Origin: Escallonia rubra
Taxonomy: Eukaryota; Streptophyta; Magnoliopsida; Escalloniales; Escalloniaceae
Assembly (NCBI GenBank): GCA_033065855.1
Contig: JAVXUO010000922.1
Span: 310,001 to 374,000, forward strand
Direction of reading: 5' to 3'
DNA: 64,000 nucleotides
Of this stretch, positions 14,274-64,000 are shown piece by piece; positions within the stretch are counted from its first letter, which is position 1, and each line of letters opens with the position of its first letter. The translations under genes and the position numbers were made by a program. The notes under the pieces are model-generated. The model worked only from the letters and a program-made list of their open reading frames with translations. It was not told where the DNA came from and ran no database searches.

Positions 14274-14795
14274 TGGTGCATGCAAGAAATGAGAGAGAGT
14301 GAGCCGAAAGCCTTGGGAATACTTACAGCAGTTTTATTAAGATTACCACTATTTTGGATAACAAACAGTGATGGAAAGAAAGACAATATGGCTGAGTGTT
14401 CTGGTGTGTGTTTACCGCTGTCTTGGTTATATACAGTGAAGAAGGAGAGTCTTATTTCTCTTGTGGATAGAGAGCAACTTGAAGTCTTCCTTGTGTGCAA
14501 GCTATACATTGTTGCATGCAAGAGATGGTGGCTAGTGAGGAGTAGAACAGCTTGCTTTGTGCCGTTTCCTATGGTGATTTCTCCAACTTGGTTGGAAAAA
14601 AAGTAAGTTGTATATCTCTCTAGCATTTAGCTACCTTAAGCTTAGGGCAAAAAGCTTAAGAAGGCAATTTGTAGTATTTTGTTATTGACATTGGTGCTTC
14701 TCCTGTCACTGTTTGTTTGGCTCGGTTACATTTTAGTTCTTAGCATTTGCTATATTTGCAATTCCCTATCACACAAGACCTCTTCGATCCTAACA
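14274..14795 (+). repeat. Left (5') LTR of deleted copia element
   Basis: Starts TGGTGCATGC, ends CCTAACA, and is followed by AG and the PBS. Confidence 0.85.
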
Positions 14796-17192: not shown

Positions 17193-17770
17193 TGGTGCAT
17201 GCAAGAAATGAGAGAGAGTGAGCCGAAAGCCTTGGGAATACTTACAGCAATTTTATTAAGAATACCACTGTTTTGGATACCAAACAGTGATGGAAAGAAA
17301 GGCAATATGGCTGAGTGTTATGATGTGTGTTTACCGTTGTCTTGGTTATATACAGTGAAGAATGAGAGTCTTATTTCTCTTGTGGATAGAGAGCAGCTTG
17401 AAGTCTTCCTTGTGTGCAAGCTATACATTGTTGCGTGCAAGAGGTGGTGGCTAGTGAGGAATAGAGCAACTTGCTTTGTGCCGTTTCTTGTGGTGATTTC
17501 TCCAACTTGGTTGGAAAGAAAGTAAGTTGTATATCTCTCTAGCATTTTGCTACCTTAAGCTTAGGGCAAAAAGCTTAAGAAGACAATTTGTACTATTTTG
17601 TTATTGACATTAGTGGATTTGTTTGCCTCGTGGTTTTTTCCTTCTATGCGTTTTCCATGTTAAAATTGGTGCTTCTCTTGTCACTGTTTGTTTGGCTTAG
17701 TTACGTTTTAATTCTTGGCATTTGTTATATTTGCAATTCCCAATCTCACAAAACCCCTTCGATCTTAACA
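17193..17770 (+). repeat. Right LTR of deleted copia element
   Basis: Starts TGGTGCATGC, ends CTTAACA, and keeps a ~53-bp segment absent from the left LTR. It is directly followed by AAAGCATGGTATCAAATGG, which resembles a decayed primer-binding site. Confidence 0.85.
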
Positions 17771-31485: not shown

Positions 31486-32037
31486 TGTTAGAATTATTTC
31501 ATTCATCTTGACCCCATAATCAAGATCATTAGAATCTTACAATAGCATAAACATAAGAATAATAGGGTTATGAACTCACCGGAATCAAAGGAAGCCATAA
31601 ATTACCAAGAGCTTTATTCCGATGATGAAAGAACGCCAAGATGCGGAAGGGAACGATATCCCCTTTGGTATTGATCTTCACTACTCTTCTCTATTCTTTA
31701 TGATGGAATATAGTGGTGTATTTTTTCTTTAGTCTAAGAGGCAAAGAGTGGCCAAAACATAATAATACCCTAGCCTCCAGGAAGAAAGATATTTATATAG
31801 AGAGTAGTGAGATCAACTCTAAAGCCTGCCAAATCTCAACCGTCCATCAAAATTAAGAGATTAGGGTTTATAAGCATTTTATACACAATAAATTATTAGT
31901 GTATTGGATGCTAAAATTAAATAGACCCATAATGTTATTTAGCCAATATAATTAATTAATGTCCAAGTCAAATAAATAGTCAACAATAGTATGACCCGTT
32001 AGGCCACCTAATTGGATTGGACCGATCAAATCCAACA
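31486..32037 (-). repeat. 3' LTR of copia element
   Basis: Plus-strand TGTTAGAATT...ATCCAACA; near-identical to 37703-38258. Confidence 0.9.
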
Positions 32038-32661
32038 TTCTCCCACTTGGCCAAGGGTTATACTAAGGTTAATGTCATAAGTTTTGACATAACGAAACAA
32101 AACATCCCGTAAGTTAGGCCAAATTTAACAAAAATACTAAAATGAATCGAGGATAGTATCTGTGCCTCTCAACGCCACAACACCGTTCTCCGGTTATAAT
32201 CTCAGAACTTTTGCCAAATATGACAGTCAAACAGTTTAATAGACATGAACTACATCGTTCCATAATAAATAACAATATGAACGAGTTCATGTGATTTTTA
32301 CATGAGTGTTTGTTTCAGAATACTTCAAATGTGCACTTTTAACGAGAAGTAACAAACCATAATCATAATATCCAGAATCCAAAATAAAAGGTGATCACAT
32401 AAATAAATGTCTTAAATCAAAAACCCATCATCTAAGGGAAAGACTATCAACCAAACCCATGCTAGCAACATGTTCTCGAAAGAGAGTGGGTGTTAAGCCT
32501 TTCGTTATGGGATCTGCCAACATAGCGATCATACTGATATGCTGAATAGACACTATTTGATTCTGAATTCTTTCTCTCACAACAAGATACTTAATCTCAA
32601 TATGCTTCGTTCCACCACTTGATTTGTTGTTCTTAAAAAAGAAAACAGCAGCCTGATTGTC

Positions 32662-35600
32662 TCAGAATATCTTCAGTGGTCTCGAAATTGTGTCAACCAC
32701 TTTAAGTCTCGTAATGAAGTTCTTCCACCATACACCATGACACGAAGCCTCAAAACATGCCACAAACTTTGCCTCCATGGTGTGAGAAGCCACTAATGAC
32801 TGCTTAGCACTCTTCCATGAAACAGCTCCTTCTGCGAGCATGAAGACATAACCTGATGTGGATTTCAGGGTATCTACACACCCTGCATAATCGAAATCGG
32901 AATAACCAATAACCTCAACGTTATCTGACTTCCTATAGGTAAGCATGAAATCTTTGGTACCCTGTAAGTACCACATGACTTTCTTGGCTGCTTTCCAATG
33001 ACCCATTCTCGGGTTTATTTGGTAACGTCCAAGCATGCCAACAACATACGCTATATATGGGTGAGTACAGACTTGAGCATACATGAGACTCCCCACTGCT
33101 GATGCATAGGGAATACATTCCATTTCGTCTTGCTCCAGTTGGTTCCTAGGACATTGTAGCAAACTAAATTTGTTACCCTTAACAACAGGGACAACAGTGG
33201 AAACACAGTTATGCATATTGAACCTTTTCAGAACCTTATCAATATAGGCTCTTTGGGACAATCCCAATATCCCACGAGACCTATCTCGGTGAATCTCAAA
33301 GCCTATAACATAAGAGGCCTCTCCAAGATCTTTCATATCAAAATTCTTAGACAAATTGTTTTTGGTCTCATGCAACATATGCATATCACTACTAGCAAGT
33401 AAGATGTCATCTACATACAAAACTAGAATGATAAACTTACTCCCACTGATCTTTAGGTATATACATTGGTCCACTGCATTTTCTTTGAAGCCAAATATAC
33501 TAATCACATCATGGAACTTAAGATACCATTGCCTAGAGGTTTGCTTTAATCCATATATGGATTTTTTTCAACAGACATTTCATATGTTCCTTGCCTTCAA
33601 CCATAAACCCTTCTGGTTGAGTCATATAGACATTTTTAAACAAGTCACCATTAAGAAATACAGTCTTTACATCCATTTGATGTAGCTCTAAATCATAATG
33701 AATCACTAAAGCCATGACTATTCGAAAGGAATCCTTTTTCGACACAGGAGAAAATGTTTCATTATAATCTATCCCTTCCCTTTGAGTGAAACCTTTAGCG
33801 ACGAGTCTAGCCTTGTATCTTTTGACATTACCTTTAGGATCTAGCTTAGTTTTGTAGACCCATTTACAGCCTACAGCTTTGGCCACTTTAGGCAAGTCAA
33901 TAAGGTCCCAAACTTCATTTATTTTCATTGACTCTAACTCATCTTTCATGGCCTCAAGCCATTAAGTTGAGTGATCGCTCATAATAGCTTCTTTAAAGGA
34001 TGTAGGATCATTTTCTATGCTTAAATTATAGTTAGCCTTATCTAAGTACACAATATAGTCATCAAAGATGGATGTCCGTCACTCTCTTTCTGACCTTCGA
34101 AGAGGTTGCTCATTAGCAGGAATTGGAACAGGATCCATAATAGGGGGCACATCATTAGGTACTACCTCGGGTGCATCGTTGTCCTCTATATGAGGTAATG
34201 ACGCACCAACCTTTTGGATAAAAGGAATAGAAACATGATCCTAAATTTTCTTAAGGTTTATTATTCTTTGCGTACTACTCCCATTATACTTAGCATCTTC
34301 AAAAAAAATACTACATGCCTAGTTTTAACAATTCTAGTGGTATGTGATGAACAGTAAAATCTGAAACCCTTAGACCTTTTAGGATAACCTATAAAATTAC
34401 AACTTGGGATCGAGTTTCTTAGTATGTGGATTGTAGACTTTAATTTGCTTCAGCTAAACAGCCTTACACATGAAAACATTCTAAACTTGGTTTCCTCTGT
34501 GTCCACAATTCAAAAGATGTTTTAGGCACAGACTTACTGGGAACCTTGTTAAGAATATGCACAGCTGTTTTAAGTGCTTCAACCCACAAAAACTCTGGTA
34601 GAGTGCTTTGGCATATCATACTTCGTACCATATCCATGAGGGTACGATTTCGCCGTTCAGCTACACCATTCTGTTGGGGTGTACCTGGCATTGTATATTG
34701 AGCAACAATGCCACATTCTTCCAAATACAAGGCAAAAGAACTAGGGTTACGACCCGTTTCAGAGAATTTTCCATAATATTTTTCGCCTCTATCAGATCTT
34801 ACTTTAGGTCGAGTTGATTTTCAACTTCGGCTTTGTAAGTCTTAAACATGGCAAATAAGTCATATTTTTCATGAATGAGGTAAACATATCCATAACGGGA
34901 ATAGTCATCAATAAAGGTGATAAAGTATCTATGACCACCAATACCCGGTGTAGGGAAAGGTCCACAAATGTCAGTGTGGATAACCTTTAAAAGTCCCGTA
35001 CTTCGAGTGGTACCACGTTTATTGCCTTTTACAAATTTTTCTTTAATACATTCAATACATGTGTCAAAATCTAAGAAATCTAAAGAATGAAGAATTTCAT
35101 CCTTAATGAGGCGTTCCATTCTGCCTGGTGATATGTGACCTAGACGTTCATGCCACAATTTAGCATAACTTTCATTCTCTCTTTTTCTCTTACCACAAGT
35201 TTTAGCAACTACATCATTCACGTTCATTGTTTTTAAGGATTCACTAAAAGAAGCATTCAAAAGTAATTTGTAGAGGTTTCCCTCCAACAAACCAGAACCA
35301 ATAACTATAGAGTAAAAGAAAAGAGAGAAACATTTATTCTCAAACTTAAACGAATATCCATAAGCGCTAAGTCTAGAAACAGAAATAAGGTTTTTAGTCA
35401 TACTGAGAACATAAACAGTATCAACTAAATCCAAATTAAAGCCACTCTCCAAAACTAAACGGAGAGTTCCTACAGCTTTAACTTGAGCTTTCTCTCCATT
35501 TCCTACTAGAACATTACGGTCCTTTTTATTTAACTTCTTCACGGAAAGGAATCCCTGTAATGAATTAGTTATGTGCACAGTTGCACCTGTGTCAACCCAC

Positions 35601-35707
35601 CATGTATTTAAAAGAGCATCAATTGTATAAGACTCATAACAAACGCAAATAGATAAATTACCTTTCTTTTCCAACCATTCTCTGAATTTATGACATTCTT
35701 TCCTCAT
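32662..35707 (-). pseudogene. Copia pol: protease, integrase, RT, RNase H
   Basis: In order on the minus strand: the protease box WWVDTGATVHITN; GAG-pre-integrase LWHERLGHIS; the integrase zinc-binding region and catalytic part (HTDICGPF, FIDDYSRYGYVYL, then [16 protein letters not shown] after a break near 34.8 kb); RT (CKWVYKTKLDPKGNVKRYKARLVAKGFTQ, with HQMDVKTVFLNGDL and, after a shift near 33.5 kb, LYVDDILLA); and RNase H (GYSDFDYAGCVD, SKSTSGYVF-like, VASHTMEAKFVA). The catalytic residues remain. Missing sequence and stops near 34.0-34.4 kb and the shifts make it non-functional. Confidence 0.85.
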
Positions 35708-35836
35708 GTCCTTTTTCCTTACAAAAGTGACACCTGGGACCTGAAGAACCCTTGGTACCAGAAGAGCTTGCCTTGTCAGTCTTGGTTACAGAAGCTCTTT
35801 ATTCCCTTGCACGCTACCTTCGCCAAATTTCTTTCT

Positions 35837-36384
35837 TTATCCTTTAGATGGACCAGTTATGGCAACGTGAGCACTATCAAGTTGTTCAGACTTTAGCCTC
35901 TCTTCTTCTTGGACACACATGGAAATCAACTCGCTCATCTTCCACTTCTCTTTCTGCGTGTTATAGTTGATCTTAAAATGACCAAACTGCGCAGGAAGGG
36001 AAGTCATAATAAAGTGCACGAGAAAACCTTCAGAGATTTTCATGTCCAAACCTTTTAGTTGAGAAGCCATATCATTCATCCATAAAATATGCTCACAAAC
36101 ACCGTTGGATCCACTGTACTTGAGCGTAACCATTTTAGTGATGAGAGTAGTAGCATGTACATTGGAAGAACCCTGAAACTGTTCTTCAATATGAGCAAGG
36201 TACAACTTAGCATTATCCGAATCAGGAATGGCTCCGCGAATAGCAATCGTAATGGAACCTTCATAATCAATGGAGATATGTGGTTGGAACGCTCCCACTT
36301 TTCATAAGTCGCCTTTTGCTCAGTAGAGCTTTCAGCCGTAAGGACAGCAGGCGCGTCAACCCGTAAAGCATAATCCAAATCCAT
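35837..36384 (-). pseudogene. Copia gag
   Basis: MDLDYALRVDAPAVLTAES opens gag (ATG at 36382-36384). A frameshift near 36300 moves the gag core (AKLYLAHIEEQFQGS, LKGLDMKISEGFLVHFIMTSLPAQF, EEERLKSEQ) to another frame. The zinc-knuckle CHFCKEKGH follows near 35720 with a further shift. Gag packages the element RNA in virus-like particles. Confidence 0.8.
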
Positions 36385-36399
36385 AACTCCAACGATTAT

Positions 36400-37688
36400 G
36401 CTAATTTGCTCTTTCTATTTTCTAAGATTGGTGCCGCTTAATGATTTAATAGAGGAAAGATAGCCAGTAATTGCAACAGGACTATACGCTAAATAATAAC
36501 AATAATCATGCACGTTAGTACCGAAAATCCACGCGATGAAGATAGTCAGTTCATCATTTAACATAATAAAATAAATTGAGGGGTAAACAATTTATTTGTA
36601 TGAAAAAGGTAAATACACAAAACATTTCTCAAAAGGAAAAATTAACATATCACTTATAACCTTCCGTTGGGCCAGTTATTAACAGACAAGTGTTTTTCTA
36701 TCCTTAACAATTTAGAAATCATTAAAAGCAACATGAGCACGAATTATATCACTGTTGGGCAGAAAATAATTTGACCCATGCAACTTATTATTTCATTTCT
36801 TTCCGCTTAAAAATTAAAATATAATATTCTGTTGGGCTGATCAATATTTTAATTAATAAGCGTAACGTGATGTGGTTTATCATTATCTCAACTTATAAAA
36901 TATAATAAACTTCCGTTGGGTCGCTTACTGCCAAAATAAGTAAGAACCACTAATTATTTCAAGTTCATTATCATAGTCTAGACATGCCAAACGAAGCATT
37001 AGGTTTTAGCATAATCTCGTAATTTTAGACTAATTCTTGAAATTATAATAATATTGGCACGTTATATTTATCAGTATCCCTAAATAAACCAATATTAAAA
37101 CATAAGGGGCGTTACAAATTTTATTTTGTAAGGCCCAATTAAAATACACAAGTCCTACCAAAAATCCATTTTACGCCAAAACAGGCCCAATTAGTAAGCT
37201 ACAGGCCTACTTTCAAGTGGCCAATAAAAACCCAATTCACTGGCCTAAAGACCTAGCCCGCAAACCTTTAACAGGCCCTTTACGGCCCAATTTTGCTTTG
37301 TAGACAGCAAGCACTTAACAGGCCTTTTACGGCCCAACAACTTCGGCCCACCTAACAAAACACTAGCCACAAGGGCCAATGGCTTCAGGCCACAAAACAG
37401 GCCCAAAACAAGTCTAAATATAATTTTGACTGGGCCAATTTAAGGATCCATTTAACCTTTTTGCTGGGCCAGTCTATTATTCCATTAACAGGCCACATAA
37501 CTTTCCTTTATCGGCCGACCCAATCTTGATGACCCAATATTCTAGGCCAACCAATAGCCACATGGCCGAACAACAGGCCATACAGCCGGCCGTTTCTTTC
37601 TTTCTTTTTGTTTAACGTTAGCATTTAACATAAAAAATTTCAAGAACCCAAAAGAAAATTTTCTATGTTCATGCAATTGATCAGCCTT
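36400..37688 (-). other. Long copia leader with GGCC(C) cluster
   Basis: About 1.3 kb between PBS and gag without a coding frame. From 37120 to 37590 roughly twenty GGCC-containing sites occur, many as GGCCCA or TGGGCC. Earlier parts carry repeated CCGTTGGG(C/T) boxes (near 36663, 36902 and similar). Confidence 0.6.
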
Positions 37689-37700
37689 GCTCTGATATCA
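37689..37700 (-). promoter_or_regulatory. PBS of copia element, tRNA-iMet type
   Basis: Minus-strand TGATATCAGAGC, one mismatch from the tRNA-iMet site, two bases from the 5' LTR. Confidence 0.8.
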
Positions 37701-37702
37701 CA

Positions 37703-38258
37703 AGTTAGAATTATTTCATTCATCTTGACCCCATAATCAAGATCATTAGAATCTTACAATAGCATAAACATAAAGAACAATACGGTTATGAACTCACCGG
37801 AATCGAAGGAAGTCATAAATTACCAAAAACTTTATTCCGATGATGAAAGAACGCCAAGATGCGGAAGCGAACGATATCCCCTTTGGTATTGATCTTCACT
37901 ACTCTTCTTTATTCTTTATGATGGAATAGAGTGGCGTATTTTTTCTTTAGTCTAAGAGGCAAAGAGTGGCCAAAACATAATAATACCCTAGCCTCCAAGA
38001 AGAAAAGATATTTATATAGAGAGAGTAGTGAGATCAACTCTAAAGCCTGTCAAATCTCAACCGTCCATCAAAGTTAAGAGATTAGAGTCTATAAGGCTTT
38101 TATACACAATAAATCATTAGTGTATTGGATGCTAAAATTAAATAGGCCCATAATGTTATTTAGCCAATGTAATTAATTAATGTCCAAGTCAAATAAATAG
38201 TCAACAATAGTATGACCGGTTAGGCCACCTAATTGGATTGGACCGATCAAATCTAACA
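37703..38258 (-). repeat. 5' LTR of copia element
   Basis: Matches 31486-32037; the terminal T at its inner end has become A. Confidence 0.9.
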
Positions 38259-38515
38259 ATCTACCCATGCCAAAATGGCATGTGCACCACATATGTAGAC
38301 TTAACGTCCAAAATTAAATGGACATCCAATTTTAGAGTCGTTTGTAATGGTTTTGTCAACCTCAAGGAACAATTTTGTCAAAATTGCAAACAGGGAGAAT
38401 GAAGTGCAAATACGTATAAACCTCCGAGGGGACAATTTTGTCATTAAGCTCAATTTACATATTCATCATAACAGAACTGCTCAAAACAAAACAATACACG
38501 CAATCCAAATACTAA

Positions 38516-52085: not shown

Positions 52086-52131
<46 letters not shown>

Positions 52132-52189
52132 TACACACATATATATATACATATATATATGTGTATATATGTATATATGTGTATATATA

Positions 52190-52272
<83 letters not shown>

Positions 52273-52454
52273 ATATATAAAAATATATAGGTATACATAT
52301 ATATACTAATATACCTATATATTTTTATATATATACACATATATATATATGTGTATATATATAAAAATATATAGGTATATTATACACATATATATGTGTA
52401 TATATATAAAAATATATAGGTATATTAGTATATATATGTATACCTATATATTTT

Positions 52455-52551
<97 letters not shown>
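52052..52551. repeat. Long palindromic AT/GT microsatellite
   Basis: The order is (TA)n, (GT)n, a core, (CA)n, (TA)n, which is symmetrical. In the core, TATATAAAAATATATAGG and its complement alternate, and the right part reverse-complemented repeats the left part nearly base for base. The whole tract is one imperfect palindrome of about 470 bp. It stops abruptly at 52551, where unrelated DNA begins. Confidence 0.85.
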
Positions 52552-52553
<2 letters not shown>

Positions 52554-52598
52554 GAGCTGATCCGTTGAGAGCGTTAGCAAAATAGGAGAAGTTGCAAA

Positions 52599-52643
52599 CG
52601 CGATCTGACCGTCCATCCCGAAAGATGGACGGTCCAGATCGCG
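52599..52643. repeat. Short perfect hairpin
   Basis: CGCGATCTGACCGTCCATC pairs with a downstream GATGGACGGTCCAGATCGCG with a one-base bulge and a short loop. It lies about 50 bp inside the left border of the multi-gene unit. Confidence 0.7.
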
Positions 52644-52665
52644 CCTTTTTCAAAAGCTGTCAGTC

Positions 52666-52940
52666 GTCCGCCATACTGTATGGCGGACATGTTTTTTTAC
52701 CAAATTGCCCCTCCGCGCCTGTCCGCTACACAGTACCGCGGAGGACATTAAAGTCCTGATGGGAGACAGCCAAAAGACGTCTGCGATACTGTGTAGCGGA
52801 CGTCTGACCCCTGACCCCTGCCTGACACGAGACAGCAAAAAAGGTATCCGCTATACAGTGTAGCGGACCTGACAGCTGTCAGGTTATTTCTGCACGTGTC
52901 AGAGTGTCGGGAATAATTTTCACTATACAGTATCGCGGAC
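52666..52940. repeat. Five diverged copies of the 23-bp dyad, upstream of FAR1-like gene
   Basis: Dyads at 52666-52688, 52721-52743, 52779-52801, 52846-52868 and 52918-52940. They are variants of GTCCGCTATA-N3-TATAGCGGAC. In the first copy both half-sites carry the same change (GTCCGCCATA and TATGGCGGAC), so pairing is kept. Confidence 0.8.
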
Positions 52941-53524
52941 AGGCGCTTCCCGTATATCCCAAAGTTCCTGATTCTCAGCTCTTTCCGCAAAATTTTCTTC
53001 TCCTTTGGATTCACTTGCTTCCATTTTCGGCTCCCCTCAAGCTTCGAGTAAAACTTGCTTCAATCTTCTTCACTCAAGCAAGGTAAGTTTCTGATCTCAA
53101 ATATTTTCTGGGTGGATTGACTGATAAAGTATATATTTGTTTTTGGGCAAAAAAATATAGATTTTTGATGATGTTCTAGAAATTAATTTGTTAACTTTAA
53201 AGAAGTTTATTGTAGTTAATTTTGATTTTTTTGAGGGGCGCTAACTTCGGCACATCTATCCTATTTAAATTCGAATTTTTTGAGATACGTTTGTTGTATT
53301 TTGGCATGATGAATTTGTCTAACGCTCTTAGTAATTTTAATTTGTTATGTTCAATAAATCTATAATTAGCAAAATGGGAGACTTTTGAGATTATGTATAT
53401 GGTATATTTGTCATCTTAAATTTGTCTATTCGTCAAGATAATTTTAAGGTAATATTTTCAGTTGAAAATGTCATTTGATTGTTCAGCATAGTCTATATTT
53501 CTACATATAGGGAGCTATTTCACA

Positions 53525-55822
53525 ATGTCTGATTTCGTGTCGAGCTCCAACACCCCCGTAGATGCTAGTGATCCGTATCTAGGACGAACCTTTCAAACAT
53601 TGGAGGAAGCTGGAGAATGTTTCCGAGCGTATTCATTGAGGGTTGGATTTGGCATTAGAATAAAGACTTCAAGAACAAGCAACATAACGAGAAAGATATG
53701 CTCTCGCTTATACGAGTGCCATAGAGGCAGAAACCCAGTGCAAAATGAGACACGCGTAGGCAACGAGGACAGTGATGTCGAAATAGGATATTCGCGCAGA
53801 AGACGGGACTTCTTTGCGCGAACGAATTGCCAGGTCAAGATATTCGTAAGCTATAAAGCCAAGCAAGATCATTGGCTTATTACCAGCCTGGAACTGGCAC
53901 ACAATCACCCGTTAGTAAACCCTTCTAAGGTGAGTTAGATGCATCAACACAAGAAGATGGGAAAGGTCGCGAGGAGCCTCATTCACACAATGAGCGATGC
54001 GCGGCTAGGACCTACCGACATGATTAATGTTCTTGCTGAACAGGCCGGGGGAATTCAAAATTTAAACTTTAACACGACAGACATTCGCAACGCGGTCCGA
54101 ACCCATAGACGAGCCGCGTATGACCTCAATGATGCTCAAGCCACAATGAGCCTATTGAAGCGGATGCAGATGGAGGACCCGCAATTTACCTTCGATTATA
54201 AACTTGACGACGAGCATCGAGTTAGCACAATTTTTTGGGTCGACGGTCGTTCTAGGCTTGCTTATAAGCATTTTGGGGATGTCGTGACTTTCGACACCAC
54301 ATACCGTACCAACAAGTACTCGATGCCGTTTGCCCCTTTCACGGGGGTCAATCATCATTATCACTCCATCCTGTTCGGGTTCGCCTTGTTAAGGGACGAG
54401 AGCGAGAGTTCTTTTGAATGGTTGTTTAGTGTGTGGCTGGAAGCCATGAACTTCAAAGCACCCAACGTTATCATCACCGATCAAGATTTGGCAATGAAGA
54501 AGGCTATTGCCACCGTCTTCCCAGATACTCGACACAACTTGTGCACTTGGCACATAAGCAACAAATACCCCGAACGTTTGCATCACGTGTACGCAAAGTT
54601 TCCAGACTTTAAAGAGGATTTTGACACGTGCGTTAGCAAGTCGTTAACGATTGAGGAATTTGAGGAGAGGTGGGAAAAGCTTGTTTAGGATTATTCATTG
54701 CAAGACAACGGGTGGCTCCAGCACTTGTACGAGCTCAAAGAGCAATGGATTGGCGTTTACACGAGGAGGCATTTTTCTGCGGGCATGAAAACGACGGGCA
54801 GGAGTGAATTTATGAATGCCACATTCGATAGTTGCGTGGGTACAGCTACCAATTTGAAGAGTTTCGTCACATCCACACAGAAAGCGGTTGCGTCGTTGTT
54901 CGTGAAAGAAAAGGCTGCAGACTTTGCAACCACGTACAAACAGAGGAGAAGGTTGCTTGAGACCCCGCTGGAGCTGAACGGTGCCAAAGTCTATACGAAG
55001 GAGATCTTCTTGCTATACCAAGTAGAGCTGCAGAAATCGGGACGGTACTGTATAAACAAGGTGGCAGAGAAGTCTACGCGTGAGTACAAGGTTTATTCGC
55101 TCGTGAATGACCTCGTTCCTGAGAAGCTGCGCAGAATGTATACGGTGAGCCACGACACATTGACGGACTCGGTGACATGTGTTTGCAAGAAGTTTGAGTT
55201 CCATGGCATCCTGTGTAGACACATTCTGCGCTTTTTCACCCAGAAGAATATCAGGACAATCCCGGATAAATACGTCTTACCACGGTGGACGAAAGGTGCT
55301 AACAGGTTGCACGGTACCATTGCCTTTCCGGAGCACCCGTATACTGACTTTGAAGAATCGGAGACGTTGCGGTATAATCATCTGGTGACGAGTTTCACCC
55401 GTTTGTCCGTAAAGGCTGCTGCTTCAATGGTCGGTTATAAACATCTCCTCGAGGTAGCTCAGCAGCAAGAGCCCATCGTCGACCAGTTGGAAGCAGCTTC
55501 AGTCACCAATGCGATTGACACTGAGCCTACGACGGGGGTATCAGAAGATGACGAGCCGGAGGAGGAAGACGACAATGATATCCGTTTGTTGGATCCAATT
55601 ATATCACAAACAAAAGGCCGCAAGAGATCTACGCGGATGAAAAGCTCTATTGAAACGGCAACTCAACCTAAAAAGCTGCGAAGGTGTGCATTGTGCAACA
55701 AAATGACCGACCACGACAAGCGGAACCATTACAAGGCACTGGGGATAAGTTCAGGGGGTTTGCAAGACGGGGAAGAAGGTGACGCCGAAGATGAGGACGA
55801 ACAAGCTGCAGTGGACCTTTAA
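53525..55822 (+). pseudogene. FAR1/FRS-family MULE-type transposase gene with two in-frame amber codons
   Basis: One continuous frame of 765 codons, broken only by TAG at codon 138 (53936-53938) and codon 388 (54686-54688). Domains in order: the FAR1 zinc-chelating DNA-binding domain (about residues 25-132, with the Cys residues in ICSRLYEC and TNCQVKI and the final HNH); the MULE transposase core, with D257 in FDTTY, D319 in TDQD and E428 in SEFMN forming the expected DDE set; then a SWIM zinc finger C552-x-C554...C564-x-H566. An acidic, basic-patch C-terminus ends with a CxxC. A 5'-UTR intron (53083-53510, GT-AG) is likely. FAR1/FRS proteins are transcription factors derived from Mutator-like transposases; this copy could be either. 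The ambers suggest recent loss or read-through. Confidence 0.85.
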
Positions 55823-55966
55823 TTTTTTGTACAACTTTATGACATTTGTAATAATTTTCGGAGGGATAATTTTTCGACCGAATACTGGAATTTTTAAAAA
55901 ATGGACCTATGAGAGGCCATCGAATCAAATCTAAAGTCTTTATTTCATTTTTTTTTTGTAAGCCCC

Positions 55967-56323
55967 GTCCGCTATACAATGTAGCGGACGTCATCGCAAT
56001 AAAACTTTTGGTCTTTTTTAAGTCCGCTATACAATATAGCGGACGGCATCGAAGTAAAACTTTTGGTCTTCTTTTACGTCCGATATACAATATAGCGGAC
56101 GTCATCGCAGTAAAACTTTTGGTGTTCTTTTATGTCTGCTATACAATATAGCGGACGTCATTGAAGTAAAACTTTTGGTCTTCTTTTACGTCCGCTATAC
56201 AATATAGCGGACGTCATCGCAGTAAAACTTTTGGTCTTCTTTTATGTCCGCTATACAATATAGCGGACGTCATCGAAGAAAAACTTTTGGTATTCTTTTA
56301 TGTCCGCTATACAATGTAGCGGA
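55967..56323. repeat. Tandem array of seven 56-bp units, each with the 23-bp dyad
   Basis: GTCCGCTATA-CAA-TATAGCGGAC units start at about 55967, 56022, 56078, 56134, 56190, 56246 and 56302. The spacer, GTCATCG(A/C)AGTAAAAC then TTTTGGTCTTCTTTTA, is also conserved, so whole units were duplicated. The array lies between the FAR1-like stop and the B3 gene. Confidence 0.95.
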
Positions 56324-56503
56324 TAACTCTATCATATGATATATATTAATCATATCGGGCAATCGGCTGTTATCAGTCCTATCTGAGGGCACTCTCTCTG
56401 TCTCGAACATCTAGCCCAGGCCGCTACTCCATCACTGGCGACCCACATCTCCGGTGACCCACAACTCCGGCGATAAACCGTCATCCCCTCAACGCCGACC
56501 TCG

Positions 56504-56974
56504 ATGGCTTCTGGATCGGAGACCACATACGATTTTATTGGCAACTTGCACCTGGCAGGCAAACACTTTTTCAAAGTCATGATGCCGGGGTTTGAGAATG
56601 AACTTGTAGGCTATCCCTCTTTCTCTGTATTTTCGTGTGTTAAAGGTTTGATCTTTTGGTTAAAAACTAACCTATTTTTTGTGTATTGTGGTTGTTAGGA
56701 CATACCGGAAGCCTTGACCAATCAATTTACAACAATTCATGAGAGTGCAAGATTATATAGCCGCAAGGGGGCATGGCAGGTTGAAATCAAGCTGAAGCCC
56801 GGCCGACCCCAAAAAAACCAATTCGCAGAGGGTTGGAACGTCTTCGTGCACCAGCATGGCCTCGAACTCGGGGACTTTGTAGTGTTTGAACACCTTAGGT
56901 GGTGGGATTTTCAAGTTCTAATCTTTGATCGGAGCACGTGTGAAAAAATTTCTTTCCCCCAATGTGAACCCTAA
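56504..56974 (+). CDS. Single B3 DNA-binding-domain protein
   Basis: Two exons, 56504-56605 and 56699-56974, separated by a 93-bp GT-AG intron, give 125 residues. The spliced product is essentially one B3 domain. HFFKVMMPGFENEL is joined by splicing to DIPEALTNQF, and these form the first strands. ARLYSRKGAWQVEIK and FAEGWNVFVHQHGLELGDFVVFEH follow, and FQVLIFDRSTCEK ends the fold. B3 domains bind DNA in the nucleus; single-domain short forms belong to the REM-like group. It starts at an ATG giving MASGSETTYDFIG. No activation domain or second B3 is present. Frame and splice sites are intact, unlike the FAR1-like and PMD neighbours. It lies between two groups of the dyad repeats, and may be a regulator or site-recognition factor of the unit (inference). 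Confidence 0.8.
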
Positions 56975-57009
56975 TTTATTATTAATAAAATAATTTATGT
57001 TCTTGTTGA

Positions 57010-57310
57010 TTGTGTTTCGAAATTTTTCCTCGCTTAATTGTGCTTAATTGTGTCGTTTGAGATTCCCTCGATATATTGAGATCGTTGATTGTGAATCGTA
57101 CGTTAATTGTGTCGTTTGAGATTTCGTCGGTATATTGAGATCGTTGATTGTGAATCGTACGTTCTTTATTGTTTATCGATATTGAGATTGTTGATTCTAA
57201 CGCCAAAACAAGTCTTCGGGGCGCCAATTTATTAAAACAGCATTATGCTACAATGCGACTAAAACAAGCCTTTGGGCGCCAATTTATTAAAACTGCAGTA
57301 CGCTACAACG
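57010..57310. repeat. Two adjacent short tandem duplications
   Basis: A ~61-bp unit (ATTGTGTCGTTTGAGATT ... GATTGTGAATCGTACGTT) occurs twice plus a partial between 57045 and 57190. A ~58-bp unit (AAAACAAGTCTTCGGGGCGC / AAAACAAGCCTTTGGGCGCC) occurs twice between 57205 and 57310. Confidence 0.75.
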
Positions 57311-57333
57311 TCTAGCTCTACTACATAGCGGAC

Positions 57334-57422
57334 ATAAGGCCTCCGCTTAGGCCGGGGTTCGGGAAGGTCGGAACTAAGTGTCTGGTTCGTGCCAACCATT
57401 TTCTGGTCCAAGTTGCAGACAA
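57334..57422 (+). repeat. Left arm of 89-bp inverted repeat
   Basis: Pairs with 57590-57678 with about two mismatches. The loop is 167 bp and contains two of the 23-bp dyads. Confidence 0.9.
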
Positions 57423-57473
57423 TGATCTGCTGCACCACTATGACGTAAGCTTGGTCATGTATTCTGCGGGGCT

Positions 57474-57572
57474 GTCCGCTATACTCTATAGCGGACCTAG
57501 ATAGGAGGAAAAAAAAAGTAAGTGTTGGGGACTTTCCCTCTGCGGGGCTGTCCGCTATACTATATAGCGGAC
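57474..57572. repeat. Pair of dyad units inside the hairpin loop
   Basis: Dyads at 57474-57496 and 57550-57572, 76 bp apart. The spacer (GGAAAAAAAAAGTAAGTGTT, then GGGGACTTTCC) is the reverse complement of the spacer in the large array at 59.5-60.1 kb, so this is an inverted relative of that array. Confidence 0.85.
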
Positions 57573-57589
57573 CTAGGAGAGAAAAATGG

Positions 57590-57678
57590 TTGTCTGCAAC
57601 TTGGACCCGAAAATGGTTGGCACGGACCAGACACTTAGTTCCGACCTTCCCGAACCCCGGCCTAAGCGGAGGCCTTAT
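57590..57678 (-). repeat. Right arm of 89-bp inverted repeat
   Basis: Reverse complement of 57334-57422. It ends 22 bp before the stop codon of the minus-strand small gene, so it lies within that gene's likely 3' UTR. Confidence 0.9.
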
Positions 57679-57699
57679 AGCCTTAGAAGAACTCGATCT

Positions 57700-58131
57700 T
57701 CAGTCATCTTCATCTGAAACTGGAGCATCGAAAACATTTCCTTCTTTGAAGCTCATGTTCCAGTATACTTGTGCTTCATTGTTGTTGCCATCTTCATGTG
57801 CATCACGTGCCATACGACGTAAGTTATGCCTACTTTGACGAACTCTCATTCTATTATTTTCCTCACGTATTCGATGCAGTGCCCTTTCAAGCTCTATGTG
57901 CGTAATTCGAGGCATGTTGATTGCCTTTTGTCGAGGTATGGGTATATTCATGCTCCGTGAATCAGCTACTAAGACCTCGTGTTCATTCATCCGATAAGAC
58001 CATTCTGCACGTAATGTATTAACATAGCTTGATGAGTAACGCAAACTTGGACGCAAAGAATAGTGAAATTCATCTTCGCCCGCCCAGTAACGACCCATTG
58101 CTTCAAAAATATCTCGTGGAGTATATGACAT
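57700..58131 (-). CDS. Small protein A of a divergent paralogous pair, unknown function
   Basis: 143 residues, ATG giving MSYTPRDIFEAMGRY. The middle shares a pattern with the protein at 58521-58955: LRxEWxYRxxExE (residues about 40-52), PxPxR/Q then MxR (about 64-75), and IxEENNRMxxRxxR (about 87-101), with an acidic end (VSDEDD). The ENNRM region is charged and heptad-like and may form a coiled coil. No known domain is recognised, and no membrane segment is seen. The gene is head to head with its paralogue, 389 bp apart, and has a TATA-like TATATATA about 70 nt upstream. The intact frame and the kept pattern argue that it codes for a real protein. Confidence 0.7.
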   Translation of the reverse strand: MSYTPRDIFEAMGRYWAGEDEFHYSLRPSLRYSSSYVNTLRAEWSYRMNEHEVLVADSRSMNIPIPRQKAINMPRITHIELERALHRIREENNRMRVRQSRHNLRRMARDAHEDGNNNEAQVYWNMSFKEGNVFDAPVSDEDD

Positions 58132-58520
58132 TTCCAGAGTTGTTATGAAATTGGGAGTATATCACTCTATGCCCTTTGCCCTTCGTTCAATGCATGTACT
58201 TATATATACTTTGAAACGGGACCACTTTATGAAAGAGCTACAGGTTCAACTTTATGAGATGTGACAAGCCTTTGGCAATAGACTACAGACTTTTCTTGTC
58301 ACCAAAGAGAATTGTCTTGTCACCAAAGACTTGTCAACTTTATGACACGGGCATGCTATTGTCTCCAACTATTGTCATCTTCAATGTCCAGAGACTTGTC
58401 TTGTCACCAGAGATGGACAGACTATTGTGTAGCTATCACACCAATATATTATGTATGTGTGTGTGGGCTTATTTATATATGTCAGCCATGCTCATCGCTT
58501 TAGAACCAAAACAAAGTTAA
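58132..58520. promoter_or_regulatory. Divergent promoter of the small paralogous gene pair
   Basis: TATA-like boxes at 58201-58208 (for the minus gene) and about 58474-58480 (for the plus gene). Three direct copies of CTTGTCACCA(A/G)AGA lie at about 58295, 58316 and 58400, possible sites for a regulator. No other gene fits in this gap. Confidence 0.6.
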
Positions 58521-58955
58521 ATGGCAGGAGTTCCTGGGAGTTCTAGTCTGCGGGGACGTGAGACTGTGTGGTTGTTGTGTGAAAGGAACGACGACTACAA
58601 AGAAGTGAAGTACACGGATCCCAGAGAGTATTATTGCGGTTTACGGAGAGAATGGGCATATCGAGTTAAGGAATCAGAAGCGCTACACCAAGATCTCACC
58701 ACGCTGAGAGCACCTGTGCCGCAACGTCGTTCACTTACTATGTCGCGGCGTAATGTTAAGCAGTGTAAGAAAGATGTGCGCCAAATTAGTATAGAGAATA
58801 ACCGGATGTTGCTGCGTAGAAAACGATTTTATATGCTTCAACTTGCGGAAGAAATGGCCGAGGTTAGTGGGAGGCAGCTCAAATCAAACGAGAGAAACAA
58901 TATTTTAACCAATGATCAGTACTTATCTGATGAGTATATGTCAAATGAAGAGTGA
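58521..58955 (+). CDS. Small protein B of a divergent paralogous pair, unknown function
   Basis: 144 residues, ATG giving MAGVPGSSSLRGRETVW. It aligns by eye with the minus-strand protein A: LRREWAYRVKESEAL, APVPQRRSLTMSR and ISIENNRMLLRRKRF correspond to LRAEWSYRMNEHEVL, IPIPRQKAINMPR and IREENNRMRVRQSRH. Both end acidic. Identity is low overall, so the duplication is old. The central part is strongly basic and suggests nucleic-acid or protein binding, with a possible coiled coil. No family is recognised. The gene is followed by the 170-bp repeats and the largest dyad array. Confidence 0.7.
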   Translation: MAGVPGSSSLRGRETVWLLCERNDDYKEVKYTDPREYYCGLRREWAYRVKESEALHQDLTTLRAPVPQRRSLTMSRRNVKQCKKDVRQISIENNRMLLRRKRFYMLQLAEEMAEVSGRQLKSNERNNILTNDQYLSDEYMSNEE

Positions 58956-59100
58956 TATATATATCTCTTCCTACTGCATGTTAGGATTTCATTCCAACCG
59001 GCACTTATCCACATGTCATTCTAATTAGCGAATCCCGTCTTTTGAAGCATGTAAAATGCTGGGAATATATGTTTCTAACTACATCCGTCATAATATAATG

Positions 59101-59490
59101 GGGTAACTAGCATGCCTAAGGTGCAATGAGCAAAAAAAAAGTGACAAAGTGGACTTTCAACATTTTTCGCAAGCTATGAATTTGGCGCTAAAGTGTGCGC
59201 GAATAGGCCCTTCATAGGAAAATCAAAAAAATAATTTATCTCGTTTTTCGCCGAAATTCATAGAAATGGGCTATATAGCGTGCCTAAGGTGCAATGAGCA
59301 AAAAAAAAAAAGTGACAAAAAAAATTACAACATTTTTCGCAAGCTATGAATTTGGCGCTAAAGTGTGCGCGAATAGGCCCTTCATAGGAAAACCAAAAAA
59401 ATAATTTGTCTCGTTTTTCGCCGAAATTCATAGAAATGGGCTATATAGCGTGCCTAAGGTGCAATGAGCAAAAAAAAAAGTGACAAAAAA
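59101..59490 (+). repeat. Tandem ~170-bp repeat, 2.2 copies
   Basis: TGCCTAAGGTGCAATGAGCA recurs at 59113, 59281 and 59451. The body, with CGCAAGCTATGAATTTGG, TGTGCGCGAATAGGCCC and TTTTTCGCCGAAATTC, is nearly identical in the first two. Units 2 and 3 begin with CTATATAGCG, which resembles one half of the dyad. Confidence 0.9.
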
Positions 59491-59502
59491 TTACATATCT
59501 AC

Positions 59503-60065
59503 GTCCGCTATACTATGTAGCGGACAGCCAAGCAGAAGGAAGACTCCCCAACACTTAGTTTTTTTTTTCGGCCCTATCTACGTCCGCTATACTATATAGC
59601 GGACAGCCAAGCAGAAGGAAGACTCCCCAACACTTAGTTTTTTTTTCGGCCCTATCTACGTCCGCTACTATATAGCGGACAGCCAAGCAGAAAGAAGACT
59701 CCCCAACACTTAGTTTTTTTTCGGCCCTATCTACGTCCGATGTACTATATAGTTGACAGCCAAGCAGAAAGAATACTCCCCAACACTTAGGTTTTTTCTT
59801 GTCCTATCTACGTCCGCTATATAGTATAGCCGACAGTCAAGCAGAAGGAAGACTCACCAACACTTTTTTTTTTTTCGGCCCTATCTACGTCCGCTGTACT
59901 ATATAGGGGATAGCCAAGCAGAAGGAAGACTCCCCAACACTTAGTTTTTTTTCGGCCCTATCTACGTCCGCTATACTATATAGCGGACAGCCAAGCAGAA
60001 AGAAGACTCCCCAACACTTAGTTTTTTTTCGGCCCTATCTACGTCCGCTATACTATATCGCGGAC
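59503..60065. repeat. Tandem array of eight ~77-bp units, each with the 23-bp dyad
   Basis: Dyads begin near 59503, 59582, 59660, 59735, 59812, 59889, 59966 and 60043. The common spacer holds AGCCAAGCAGAA(G/A)GAAGACT, CCCCAACACTTAG, a T run, then CGGCCCTATCTAC. Some copies have decayed half-sites (for example at 59735 and 59889). It is the inverted counterpart of the pair at 57474-57572. Confidence 0.95.
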
Positions 60066-60312
60066 AGCCAAGCAGAAACAGTCTCACTTGGTTTTTACAC
60101 TTTGTTTCCCCCTGGTGAAAGCAAATCACACAGAACAAATAAAACACTCAACTCAACAACACAACGATATCAGTGAATCAAATCAATCGCATTCAACAAC
60201 GATCACATCTCAGTCAACACAGATGAAATCATCAATCGCATTCAACGATAAGATTCAAGAAGTTTAAGGACAATTAAAAAAGTGAATATAATGTTATTAT
60301 ACGCAAACATTG
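60066..60312. other. Gap between array and PMD-Ulp1 gene
   Basis: AT- and CA-rich sequence with short repeats of CATTCAACRA and ATCAATCGCATTC; probably 3' UTR or flank of the minus-strand gene. Confidence 0.4.
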
Positions 60313-63300
60313 TCAATTACACGGATTTACAATAAATCTAATAGCTCTAAGCCGGCCATTGATAATTTGCCAAGCCATCCTATACCTAAAGCAGTCTATG
60401 CATTCTTGGCTCCAGACGGTCTTCTTGAGGCTCTCCGACCGACAGATGTAATCCATGTACATGCAGACGAAGACGCCGCAGTCCGAGGTATTAAGTTGCC
60501 TTGGCCTAGTCCTCTTCAATCGGAGAACAAGTTGCGTATCGCCCGGTGCCCTCCCTCGACCCTCTCGAGCACGCTCTCTATTGACCATGCCAGCAAATAG
60601 ATTCTGCGAGAAACAGGATAAGCATTAAACATTTTATATGCTTAAATAATAAGCATTAAACATTAAACACAACAAACATAATAAGATTAATCACTTCTAC
60701 AATATGCAAGTTACAATAAGAAGTAAACAGGATCTTACCATAGCATCCAACATCCCTAAGCCTCAGTACATTTCAATCACACCAATCATGGCGGTATCAT
60801 CGTAGAGACTGTCGAGGACTGATACGGTATTCGTGTGCGGCTCATAGCAAATCAAGAACCAGTGGGCATTCACTATAGCTGGGAGTAGAAACACATCCGC
60901 CACACTTGCCCTCTCTGGACTCGGCCGAGCAATATATGCTTGTAGGTTAGCGGACGGTTTCCACTTGAGCTGGACCTTCGCCTTTTTCGCCTGCTTCAAC
61001 GCCTTGTCCCAGTCGTTATACTCCTATACTAGCATGCCATGAAAGTAAGCATCGAGGATAAAAATGCGCGGACCGTAGTTAGGCTACTCCCGACTCCTTT
61101 CCGCAGAATTTGCACGTAGTGCGAGATGACAAAGTTGTCTAACCAAATTCCCGACGCCAGCGAGGACAGTTCTCTCCACGAGGCATTGTAATCCAAGCCC
61201 TGCGGGTGATCCACGTCATACGACGCTCCGTCTGGGGGGGCCCGCTAAAATAACGGTTTCGGATTAGGTCATGTTTATGCGGCTTCAGAGGCCTGGCTGG
61301 ATGCCCTTTCGGATATTGCCCTCGGGGGTCGACCGGTTGCTCTAGGCCTCCGCCGGGGGGCAAGAGCAACGAAAGAAATTGGCCTCTAAGCCTTAACGGA
61401 TCGGCCGGCTGATAATCCCCTTGGGGGGGCCCGGCCGGCTGATAATCGCCTTCGGGGGCCCCGGCCGGCTGATATTGCTCGCCGGCCATTTCTTCCGCCG
61501 GCTGATATTGCCTTTAGGGGCCGCCAAGTGGTCCCGTCCACGGGACAATGGGCAGTGCCTCGTTGAAACCGTAAGGCCATTCTTGCGTGACTTGACTCTG
61601 AGAGAGGGGTTGGGGTTCCGGGAACAAATCGAAGGTCGGGCCGCTGTAATCGGCCCACGACGCTTGAGCATGTCCCATCCCCGGTACAGAGGGACCACCA
61701 ACTCCCTGGCTCACCCCTGAAGCTTGCCCGGAGGGATCAACGTTATACGGGCTGGCGCCCGTATAACCCATTCCTGGGCTGTCGACCGAAGACTGTCCCG
61801 ATGCTTGCCGCACAAAATTCCCGCAGCCTATAGCCAGTTCAGCAGCCTGTTGGCGAAGATCCTCGCCCATTGCGCTCATCAGATCCTTCCGCTCACTCAA
61901 CTTCTGGACGAATGCAAGCGAGGCATTAACCTACATCCAAAGAGATAACAAATAAGTAACTTTAATCAGACATTTATATTCAAGACAAGTTGGGCAACTT
62001 ACGAGATTGTATGCCATACGCTCGTCGATCTGACCCCTAGGCGCATACCTCGCCCCGCGTTCAAAGTTCACTGGGGCTACTCTCCTCCGCGTGATGCGAG
62101 ACTACCACTCATCGTACTCCGCGATGCTGATAACGGGGTCCGGCTCCGAGACGATGGCCGCCAGTGTGTCATGCCAAGAAGTCCAGAGCTCTAGTTCGGC
62201 CGCGCACAATTCTTGCGCATTGGCCTTGCCAAACCTCCCGACATCCGGTGGGTCCCTGTTAACCCTTATATCTGGGGCACCGGCGGGCAAACCGTGCTCC
62301 AACTCAAAATGGCGCATTGCTCGGTCTGGCAGCTGCCACTCTGTGACCTCGAAGTGGATGAGGGGTGTGCGCTGCAACCTAGAGAGCGTGAAAATGAACG
62401 ACTCTTCTACCCGTCGCGCCAAACGTATGTACGGTGCCCAACGCAATTGGCCCAGAGATAGGCGGTCGAACTCCCCTCGATAAAACGTGATGTTGTGATG
62501 GGGATCGACTCTCCTGCGGTAGTGGCTATTCTTCCGGCTGTACTCCCAAGCATGCAACCGAGGCCACACTCTATCGGTTCCATCCCTACACGTCGGTGAA
62601 CCGGGAGCAAGGTGTTCATAAGACCACACCTGAGAACATGGGCCAATTATATTTATATCGTCGATTCAACAAAAGCAAAAACAAAAAAAAAAACAATAAC
62701 GAAGACAGGATTTATATGATATACCTGCAATAGCGAGAGACATGCACATATGGCTTTGGAGTCGGGCCTCGTTGCCTTGTGCAATGCTTGGTACAGATAC
62801 AAAAGAACCGCTGCACCCCATGCATAATCTCCAACCTCAGCCAGGTTACCCAACAACGGTAAATATTTCACGCTGGCCGTGTTCTTCGACGTCATTGGGA
62901 ATAAAATTGCCCCCATTACCCACCAAAGGAAGGCTTTTGTGTAAAGCACAAGCTCATGGCCCGTATAGTTTTCCGGCAATACCCCGTACGTATCTACCAA
63001 CCACTTCAACTTTATACCACCACTGCTAAATCCATCCCGGGGTATCGAAGTGAGGAAGTCCCTAGCGGTTCTCGTCTTCGTTGCTTCTGACGGAGGAGCA
63101 ATTACCGGCAGCCCCGTCACCGGCAACCCTAAGATGAACCCTACATCTTCTAGGGTAATTGTCAGCTCTCCGAGCGGGAAGTGAAACGTATTCGTTTCAC
63201 TTCTCCACCTCTCAACAAGGGCACCTATCAAGGCCCGGTCAAGCTGTTGAAATATCTGCCCATGCGTGAAAATCCCAAACCCAATTCCACGCAGTATCCT

Positions 63301-63522
63301 CTTCTAGGCAGTGTTCAGTTTCCACGATGCTATATGGCGAGATACTTCTACGGTGTTGAGAAGTTCTCTTTCCTACTAATTAATAAATACAATTTAAGCA
63401 TAACAAACGGTATGTACAACGTTCGTAAGCGATAGAAAGTCGATAAATAATGTATCTTACACCACCATCCCATATGAGCGTACTGATATGGTTGGCTTGG
63501 TCGTATAACACGGATGGGTCTT
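60313..63522 (-). pseudogene. Plant mobile domain (PMD) – Ulp1/C48 peptidase fusion gene, disrupted
   Basis: Minus strand; exons inferred at 63522-63461 (cut by CACTA), 63303-62725, 62629-62003, 61930-60739 and 60603-60313, all joined by GT-AG introns in phase 0. The N-terminal half is a plant mobile domain: DPSVLYDQANHISTLIW, LDRALIGALVERWRSETNTFHFPLGELTITLEDV, then WLVDTYG and LLYLYQALHKA. Exon 4 has a Pro/Gln-rich linker with repeated YQPAG units. The C-terminal part is a C48 cysteine peptidase. Its triad His (codon 60862-60864), Asp (60811-60813) and Cys in SDCG (60478-60480) is retained, with the Gln of PRQLNTSD before it. Stops at 62102, 61514, 61024 and 60763 and frameshifts near 61.1-61.5 kb disable it. 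PMD-C48 fusions are known in plant mobile elements. A C48 peptidase would cleave SUMO-like conjugates. Confidence 0.85.
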
Positions 63523-64000
63523 CACTACAAGAAAACAAGCTTTTAGCGACGGGAAATCCGTCGCTAAAAGCCTAAAATCCGTCGCTAAAGGAATTAGCGA
63601 CGGATTCACCGTCGCTAAAAATCCCTCGTATAAAAGCCCGTCACTAATAGTTTAGCGACGGAATTTTTAAATCCGTCGCTAAATATGTGATTTTTACCGA
63701 CGGATTTATTTTTCATTAGCGACGGAATGTCCGTCGCTAATTATATTTTTAAAATTTTAATTTATTTTCTTTTTCGTCCAATTAGCGACGGATTAAATAT
63801 TTAGCGACGGAATATTCCGTCGCTAAATATTTAATTGAAAGGAATATTTTAGCGACGGAATAAATCCGTCGCCAAAAGTCAATATTTTTTTAAAATTTTT
63901 TTTTTATTTTTCAATTACCTAAACCTGTACAGAAATAAAAATCTCAACAACAACGCGCAATAAAAGAAATACAGAAAAAAAATATATAATCAATTAGAAA
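63523..64000 (+). mobile_element. CACTA (En/Spm) transposon, left end
   Basis: Starts CACTACAAGAAAA, the canonical CACTA terminal inverted repeat. Then come about fourteen copies, in both orientations, of TTAGCGACGGA/TCCGTCGCTAA, the subterminal repeats to which the CACTA DNA-binding protein binds. The three bases before it (CTT, 63520-63522) would be one copy of the 3-bp target duplication. The other end lies beyond the window. No transposase is visible here. Confidence 0.9.

Follow-up and report, generated by a model that had tools for sequence, protein, structure and literature searches.

Transposons that counteract their silencing with a DNA-reading protein of their own are known from the VANDAL elements of Arabidopsis. 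VANDAL21 (Hiun), with VANC21, and VANDAL6, with VANC6, are Mutator-like elements (MULEs) that combine a conserved transposase with extra genes; each family is described as carrying its own short motif in noncoding tandem arrays of fast-changing number, and between related families the motifs differ and the accessory proteins have diverged (PMC5735166, PMC10398659), with VANC evolving fast compared with VANA (PMC5735166). Here we describe an element of Escallonia rubra found in a 64,000-nucleotide stretch of contig JAVXUO010000922.1 (positions 310,001 to 374,000; hereafter the window, in whose numbering coordinates are given unless contig C1395 is named). The unit at 52552-63522 is almost certainly one copy of a young, high-copy MULE which bears terminal inverted repeats (TIRs) and five genes, with groups of a 23-bp dyad lying between them.

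In so far as the accessible descriptions extend, the Escallonia element resembles the VANDALs in its conserved transposase, its fast-evolving accessory protein and its family-specific motif in noncoding tandem arrays of rapidly changing size (269 dyads in ten loci), and VANDAL/VANC anti-silencing would be its closest functional parallel. However, VANDALs are described as non-TIR MULEs (PMC13317346), whereas the Escallonia element has TIRs of about 250 bp; VANC carries DUF1985/DUF287, in place of which we find PMD-C48; the VANC21 motif as described, YAGTATTAY, is not palindromic, unlike the dyad; and the described parts of the VANDALs include no (TA)n target preference, B3 gene or pair of small proteins. 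If absence of TIRs and presence of DUF1985 are both taken as defining, the element lies outside the VANDALs.

By target, the closest described systems are (TA)n-targeting MULEs such as MuTAnT. The accessible accounts of MuTAnT/AutoMuTAnT (Medicago) give variable (TA)n flanks, a 9-bp duplication at non-TA sites and many short derivatives, with AutoMuTAnT having 4.9 kb and one gene (PMC4486113); SaTar, Micron and TAFT are described as further (TA)n-linked MULEs, of which SaTar stacks in microsatellites (PMC5907723). The Escallonia element shares with these descriptions the (TA)n flanks, 9-bp duplication, short derivatives and (with SaTar) microsatellite stacking, but its length of about 11.8 kb, its five genes and its dyad arrays set it apart from AutoMuTAnT as described. 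MULEs carrying Ulp1 genes have been described as KIU/Kaonashi and from grapevine and melon (PMC13317346, PMC2528002). The Escallonia element likewise has a Ulp1-type (C48) gene; unlike in the available descriptions of those elements, its C48 part is joined to a PMD in one gene (according to the exon model), and the same descriptions include no B3 gene, small-protein pair or dyad arrays. Hop/Jittery MULEs encode a FAR1-MULE-SWIM protein and, in the case of Jittery, have long TIRs. The group is named in PMC6446971, and the TIRs of Jittery are given as 181 bp (PMC4486113); the Escallonia element is like them in protein and TIRs, and differs by its accessory genes. No description of the five-gene set with dyad arrays was found in the literature searched, which did not include most subscription journals.

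A recurrent five-gene element

A sequence-only reading of the window had proposed a mobile unit of five genes, and their joint recurrence, with the TIRs and target duplications described below, bears this out. We searched the window's own assembly (GCA_033065855.1; 566 Mb, 3,222 contigs) and compared ten loci, namely the window with the following 20 kb, and nine loci picked by the transposase alone from its best 150 places. The transposase gene, the two-exon B3 gene, the small-protein genes SP1 and SP2 and the PMD-Ulp1 gene stand in identical order and strand in all ten, one copy (C1824) being cut by a contig end. Genome-wide, the middle part of the transposase has 3,145 candidate places, the best 150 of which are all 97-100% identical and carry frames of at least 700 amino acids (aa) in about three quarters of cases, and SP2 has 1,343, the best 150 of which are 94-100% identical, nine having an internal stop. 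Counts from these two sets of 150 are lower bounds: for 96 of the 150 SP2 places, the transposase list has an entry 3,853-4,658 bp upstream on the same strand, with none on the opposite strand and none on the wrong side. The terminal motif of the element has 3,912 genome matches, the control none.

The left TIR (52552-52802, forward strand; 251 bp) is 98.8% identical to the right TIR, with which it pairs and which lies beyond the window (C1395:379196-379446). TIRs of 251-296 bp are present in all nine loci with both ends and are 84-100% identical within an element (296/296 in C2355), a high identity that points to recent movement of many copies. Whilst 52552 is indeed the terminal base of the element, as had been proposed, 63522 was rejected as its other end, since it is where a nested CACTA element is inserted. 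The latter, which does not belong to the unit, begins in the window (63523-64000, forward strand) and runs to 68571 (C1395:378571); it measures 5,049 bp, has TTAGCGACGG-type subterminal repeats and a CTT target duplication, and lies in the first exon of PMD-Ulp1, at a site that is empty in 8/8 loci spanning it. The window copy is 16,895 bp long with this later insertion and about 11.8 kb once it is subtracted; the eight other both-ended elements span 11,212-12,136 bp.

The element inserts into (TA)n microsatellites, in the window into a TA/TG microsatellite (52086-52551). A TA run of at least six within 20 bp was found on 32/32 flanks of 16 both-ended elements, and one of at least eight on 31, compared with a background for the latter of 0.11% of positions (window 1-51900). 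Outside this count, four flanks are other than plain (TA)n, namely the left flanks of C1824 and C68 and both flanks of C201. Genome-wide, the ten bases flanking the element are A/T-rich at about 3,511 of 3,912 ends (90%), the count being approximate because mismatches are shared between flank and motif; the flanks among the listed matches, which are the first exact ones, are nearly all TA alternations. As the flanks are (TA)n, the target duplication is unreadable in most copies; of three pairs tested, C326 has a 9-bp duplication (9/9), C201 has one with a single mismatch (8/9) and C68, with TA on one side, has none. At C1995 (L009-L010) a second copy of the family stands head to head past a (TA)n stretch, an instance of elements stacked in microsatellites.

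Pfam confirms the domain assignments made for the genes (FAR1, MULE and SWIM; B3; Peptidase_C48; PMD). The transposase gene (53525-55822, forward strand; stop-to-stop frame from 53492) matches the MULE domain at 2.8e-32 on the open 776-aa frame. This frame of 776 codons is open in nine of ten loci, the exception being the window copy with two in-frame TAG codons (53936, 54686), and stop readthrough as a design was rejected on this ground. The catalytic D, D and E, at their presumed positions, and the SWIM finger motifs are present in 10/10 loci. Transposase domain, catalytic residues with SWIM finger, long TIRs and target duplication together place the element in the MULE superfamily; a Pack-MULE, made of host gene pieces and having no transposase, was rejected given the transposase with open frames.

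The B3 gene (56504-56974, forward strand; 126 aa) has exons at 56504-56608 and 56699-56974 separated by a 90-nt GT-AG intron; its frame and splice sites are intact in eight of ten loci, and the gene is interrupted in C833 and C335. SP1 (57700-58131, reverse strand; 143 aa; no Pfam match above cut-off) and SP2 (58521-58955, forward strand; 144 aa) are divergently transcribed and are paralogues, as had been suggested (32% over 78 aa, E 2e-13 in a single comparison); a structure prediction for SP2 from two sequences was poor, with a mean predicted local distance difference test score of 56. The PMD-Ulp1 gene (60313-63522, reverse strand), broken in the window copy with its first exon cut at 63522, was modelled with C48 exons at 60316-60624 and 60766-61023, a middle part at 61517-61930 and PMD exons at 62105-62665 and 62733-63303. 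The frames of the window copy have four TAG and one TAA within these exons, two further stops (61933 TAG, 60765 TGA) being counted as outside under this model. The C48 exon matches SENP2 (E 1.3e-8), and H, D, Q and C of the peptidase, at their presumed positions, are present in 10/10 loci. A viral contig collection gave no match for the dyad, transposase or SP2, and a general genome contig collection gave none for the dyad.

The dyad and its arrays

Allowing up to three mismatches, the dyad GTCCGCTATACNATATAGCGGAC has 17 matches in the window, all at 52666-60065 and thus confined to the unit as had been noticed, and none in 100 dinucleotide shuffles. With up to four arm mismatches, and counting a further copy that lacks 2 bp, the number rises to 22 dyads, in the four groups recognised by the sequence-only reading. 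Group 1 (52666-52940) comprises five dyads with unrelated spacers, the first three at about +115, +170 and +228 from the terminus; group 2 (55967-56324) is a 56-bp tandem array of seven; group 3 comprises two (57474-57496 and 57550-57572) inside a foldback (57334-57678) whose 89-bp inverted arms (57334-57422, 57590-57678) are both present in 10/10 loci; and group 4 is a 77-bp tandem array (59496-60078) of eight (59503-60065). The genome holds 19,674 forward and 20,096 reverse matches, most sites in the window matching on both strands, and the reversed control gave 0. Twelve loci were chosen by the dyad from among its first 100 exact places (C1, C9, C17, C23 and eight others; L002, L003, L005 and L006, in the same clusters as L001 and L004, were not read separately), and in each of the twelve the dyad sits inside a family member.

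Mean dyad identity between groups is 76-90%. Group 1 spacers show no relation to those of the other three groups (mean z 0.1 against group 2, -1.0 against group 4 and -0.8 for the remaining comparison) and groups 3 and 4 are one unit in opposite orientation (about 80%; mean z 10.5), whilst groups 2/3 (mean z 1.5) and 2/4 (3.2) have weak spacer likeness at most relative to one-letter shuffles. None of the 269 dyads in the ten loci, a count that leaves out those lying outside the element in C1995 and in the window, falls within the transposase, SP or PMD gene spans, and the divergent SP1-SP2 gap has none; the number per array varies from 4 to 8 in group 2 and from 2 to 16 in group 4. Pairs 2-6 (TCCGC/GCGGA) are unchanged in 86-96% of the 188 distinct dyads (488 in all), a conservation inflated by the choice of these dyads by similarity; pairs 7 and 9 are variable, double changes included (at pair 7, T-A, C-G and G-C), and are paired in 65% and 56%. 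In 25 aligned TIRs (31 before removal of those more than 97% alike; dyads placed by consensus) the outer dyad halves are 92.8% conserved, the inner part 77.0% and the neighbours 75.0%, and 0/154 circular shifts match the outer value. Group 4 dyads have a variant form in the six loci whose C48 exon is diverged (78-83% identical to that of the window) and are closer to the usual form in the four with C48 at 93% or above; linkage of neighbours alone may account for this covariation, the grouping being post hoc.

Adjoining the C1121 copy (L014, L045, right flank) are two inverted copies of another (TA)n-linked element, 87.6% identical over 2,557 bp and hereafter denoted family 2. Its PMD-Ulp1 is 30-52% identical to the window exons. 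Five palindromes of the type CAACCGCAACA-nnn-TGTTGCGGTTG lie within the first 545 bp of the right copy, and a variant is seen in the left; this dyad has 2,383 genome matches per strand and none for the control. A tblastn search of 15 kb at this locus did not find the other window genes. With two families in the same genome that differ in their dyads and have diverged in PMD-Ulp1, protein-motif co-evolution becomes directly testable. By eye, the 170-bp tandem repeat of the window copy (59097-59490, 2.3 copies) resembles a 165-bp repeat of family 2.

Selection, optional modules and silencing signatures

The pooled ratio of non-synonymous to synonymous differences (pN/pS) over the ten loci, in which pairs are not independent, is 0.20 for the transposase, 0.25 for SP1, 0.42 for the middle part of PMD-Ulp1, 0.59 for PMD, 0.61 for B3, 1.02 for SP2 and 1.13 for C48 (SP cross-matches below 60% identity, the second C1995 PMD-C48 copy and C1121 matches below 55% were left out). 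Against distant members the values are 0.19-0.36 for the transposase, 0.27-0.66 for PMD, 0.27-0.61 for SP1, 0.33-0.58 for SP2, 0.45-0.87 for the middle part and 0.46-0.94 for C48; for B3 they are 0.66-0.76 (C1) and, from very few changes, 1.29 (C17). From these values the transposase and SP1 are clearly kept, and C48 and B3 change fast, which resembles VANC as against VANA in the accessible part of that account (PMC5735166).

Transposase, PMD-Ulp1 and dyads recur among the variants, whereas the B3 gene and the small-protein pair are modules that an element may lack. One relative with both ends (L030; 8,439 bp, 22 dyads) has the transposase and PMD-Ulp1 without B3 or the SP pair, and the partial L039 and L040 have the same layout and keep dyads; L007, L038 and L044 have B3 with no SP pair before C48, and L041 is similar, its sequence stopping short of C48. 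Because they are missing from such dyad-bearing relatives, neither B3 nor the SP pair can be the obligatory reader of the dyads in these copies, unless supplied by other copies, and both were rejected in that role; the element may have regulators of its own, as had been proposed. The SP pair has the window orientation in twelve loci having SP and C48 (the ten plus L042 and L043) and is inverted relative to C48 in C1 (L029 5757-6984) and C9 (L004); as the flip points in C1 lie within or beside inverted dyad arrays, recombination between these arrays is the likely cause there. Of at least 16 short end pairs listed, six short derivatives (276-1,945 bp) were read, and all have retained their TIRs together with 3-11 dyads.

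Transitions in the transposase gene affect CG (18/284) and CHG (11/179) more than CHH (21/663) and A/T (14/1,198), an excess which would be expected of methylated DNA, and six of the seven inferred premature stops in the window copy are TAG, which appears in line with CHG methylation decay. In dyad columns CHG changes are fewer than outside (5/58 vs 43/214, pooled counts).

Candidate readers of the dyads

As a whole, we consider it somewhat probable, by analogy with the VANDALs, that this is a TIR-bearing MULE with terminal dyads bound by the transposase and internal arrays serving PMD-Ulp1 anti-silencing. The FAR1-MULE transposase would bind the dyads of both terminal repeats and thereby move the element and its short derivatives, whilst the internal arrays would flag the element's noncoding DNA to a fast-evolving protein of its own. 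This protein is most likely PMD-Ulp1, which may keep copies unsilenced in the same way as VANC in the VANDALs. The optional modules, B3 and the small-protein pair, are probably auxiliary regulators. We hold the assignment of the two readers, transposase at the ends and PMD-Ulp1 inside, more tentatively. Support for this explanation includes the elements with transposase and PMD-Ulp1 only, which keep dyads, the diverged PMD-Ulp1 and own dyad of family 2, and the CG/CHG transition excess, which fits silencing acting on the transposase gene.

Several observations weigh against this explanation. The accessory domain is PMD and not the DUF1985 of VANC, and no DUF1985 was among the Pfam matches of the scanned pieces. 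Leaving aside the breaks of the window copy, in-frame stops interrupt accessory genes in four of ten loci (PMD of C833, SP2 of C1121, B3 of C335, and PMD with the middle part of C2162), and young copies reveal no purifying selection on C48 (1.13) or SP2 (1.02) and weak selection on B3 (0.61). Family 2 and its dyad were seen paired in copies at a single locus. Finally, CG transitions in the dyad (17/102, pooled counts) are not clearly rarer than outside (60/275), and there is therefore no clear hypomethylation footprint or protective effect.

A rival account of the optional modules, possible though on balance doubtful, sees B3 and the small-protein pair as host fragments that the element captured and carries along in the manner of Pack-MULEs, with no role in transposition. 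Their absence from some members and the young-copy ratios of B3 and SP2 are what it would predict; on the other hand, the B3 frame is complete and its splice sites are conserved in 8/10 loci, SP2 is open at 141 of the best 150 of its 1,343 candidate places, SP1 is at 0.25, and SP1 and SP2 have diverged to 32% identity with both kept. Rather unlikely, too, is that the dyads are binding sites for the transposase only, the internal arrays being by-products of tandem duplication or tuners of transposase level without any anti-silencing. The three dyads fixed in the TIR alignment (+115, +170, +228), their retention in short derivatives and the presence of transposase and dyads in all element types examined agree with such sites, but arrays with unrelated or barely related spacers lie in the noncoding gaps other than SP1-SP2, which exceeds what terminal binding needs, and their size changes fast (2-16 dyads in group 4).

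That the dyads are instead sites for the element's own B3 protein, acting as a promoter-type regulator, is improbable: B3 proteins bind DNA, and the gene, intact in most loci, adjoins an array, but L030 has its 22 dyads without B3 (L039 and L040 look alike), and the divergent SP1/SP2 gap has no dyad. Function as hairpins or small-RNA sources, at the RNA or cruciform level, seems very improbable; although the palindromes are perfect or near-perfect and show double changes at pairs 7 and 9, the near-invariance of pairs 2-6 is a better fit to sequence recognition than to pairing alone, and pairing at 7 and 9 holds in only 65% and 56% of the distinct dyads. Chance nesting of unrelated elements, which the CACTA insertion at 63523 does exemplify, was rejected as an origin of the unit by the constancy of gene set and order in ten of ten loci and by the 96 transposase-paired SP2 places with controls at 0.

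Extending the anti-silencing explanation, VANC-type anti-silencing might, speculatively, have arisen a second time in TIR-bearing (TA)n MULEs, each PMD-Ulp1 lineage reading its own palindrome, with a B3 factor and an SP1/SP2 cassette, flippable between inverted dyad arrays, added; we regard this as unlikely on present evidence. If true, the strategy would not be tied to VANC, since it would operate with palindromic target arrays, a PMD accessory domain and modular extra genes. The many near-identical copies also suit the study of microsatellite choice by MULEs.

The CpG observed/expected ratio is 0.86-1.03 in the element genes (53492-63303) and 0.47-0.48 in LINE-like (long interspersed nuclear element-like) and copia-like stretches of the window. 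By eye, window 31487-38265 is a copia-like retroelement with end repeats of about 560 bp that are 95% alike, and a 423-bp direct repeat, 95% identical, lies at 14274-14696 and 17193-17615.

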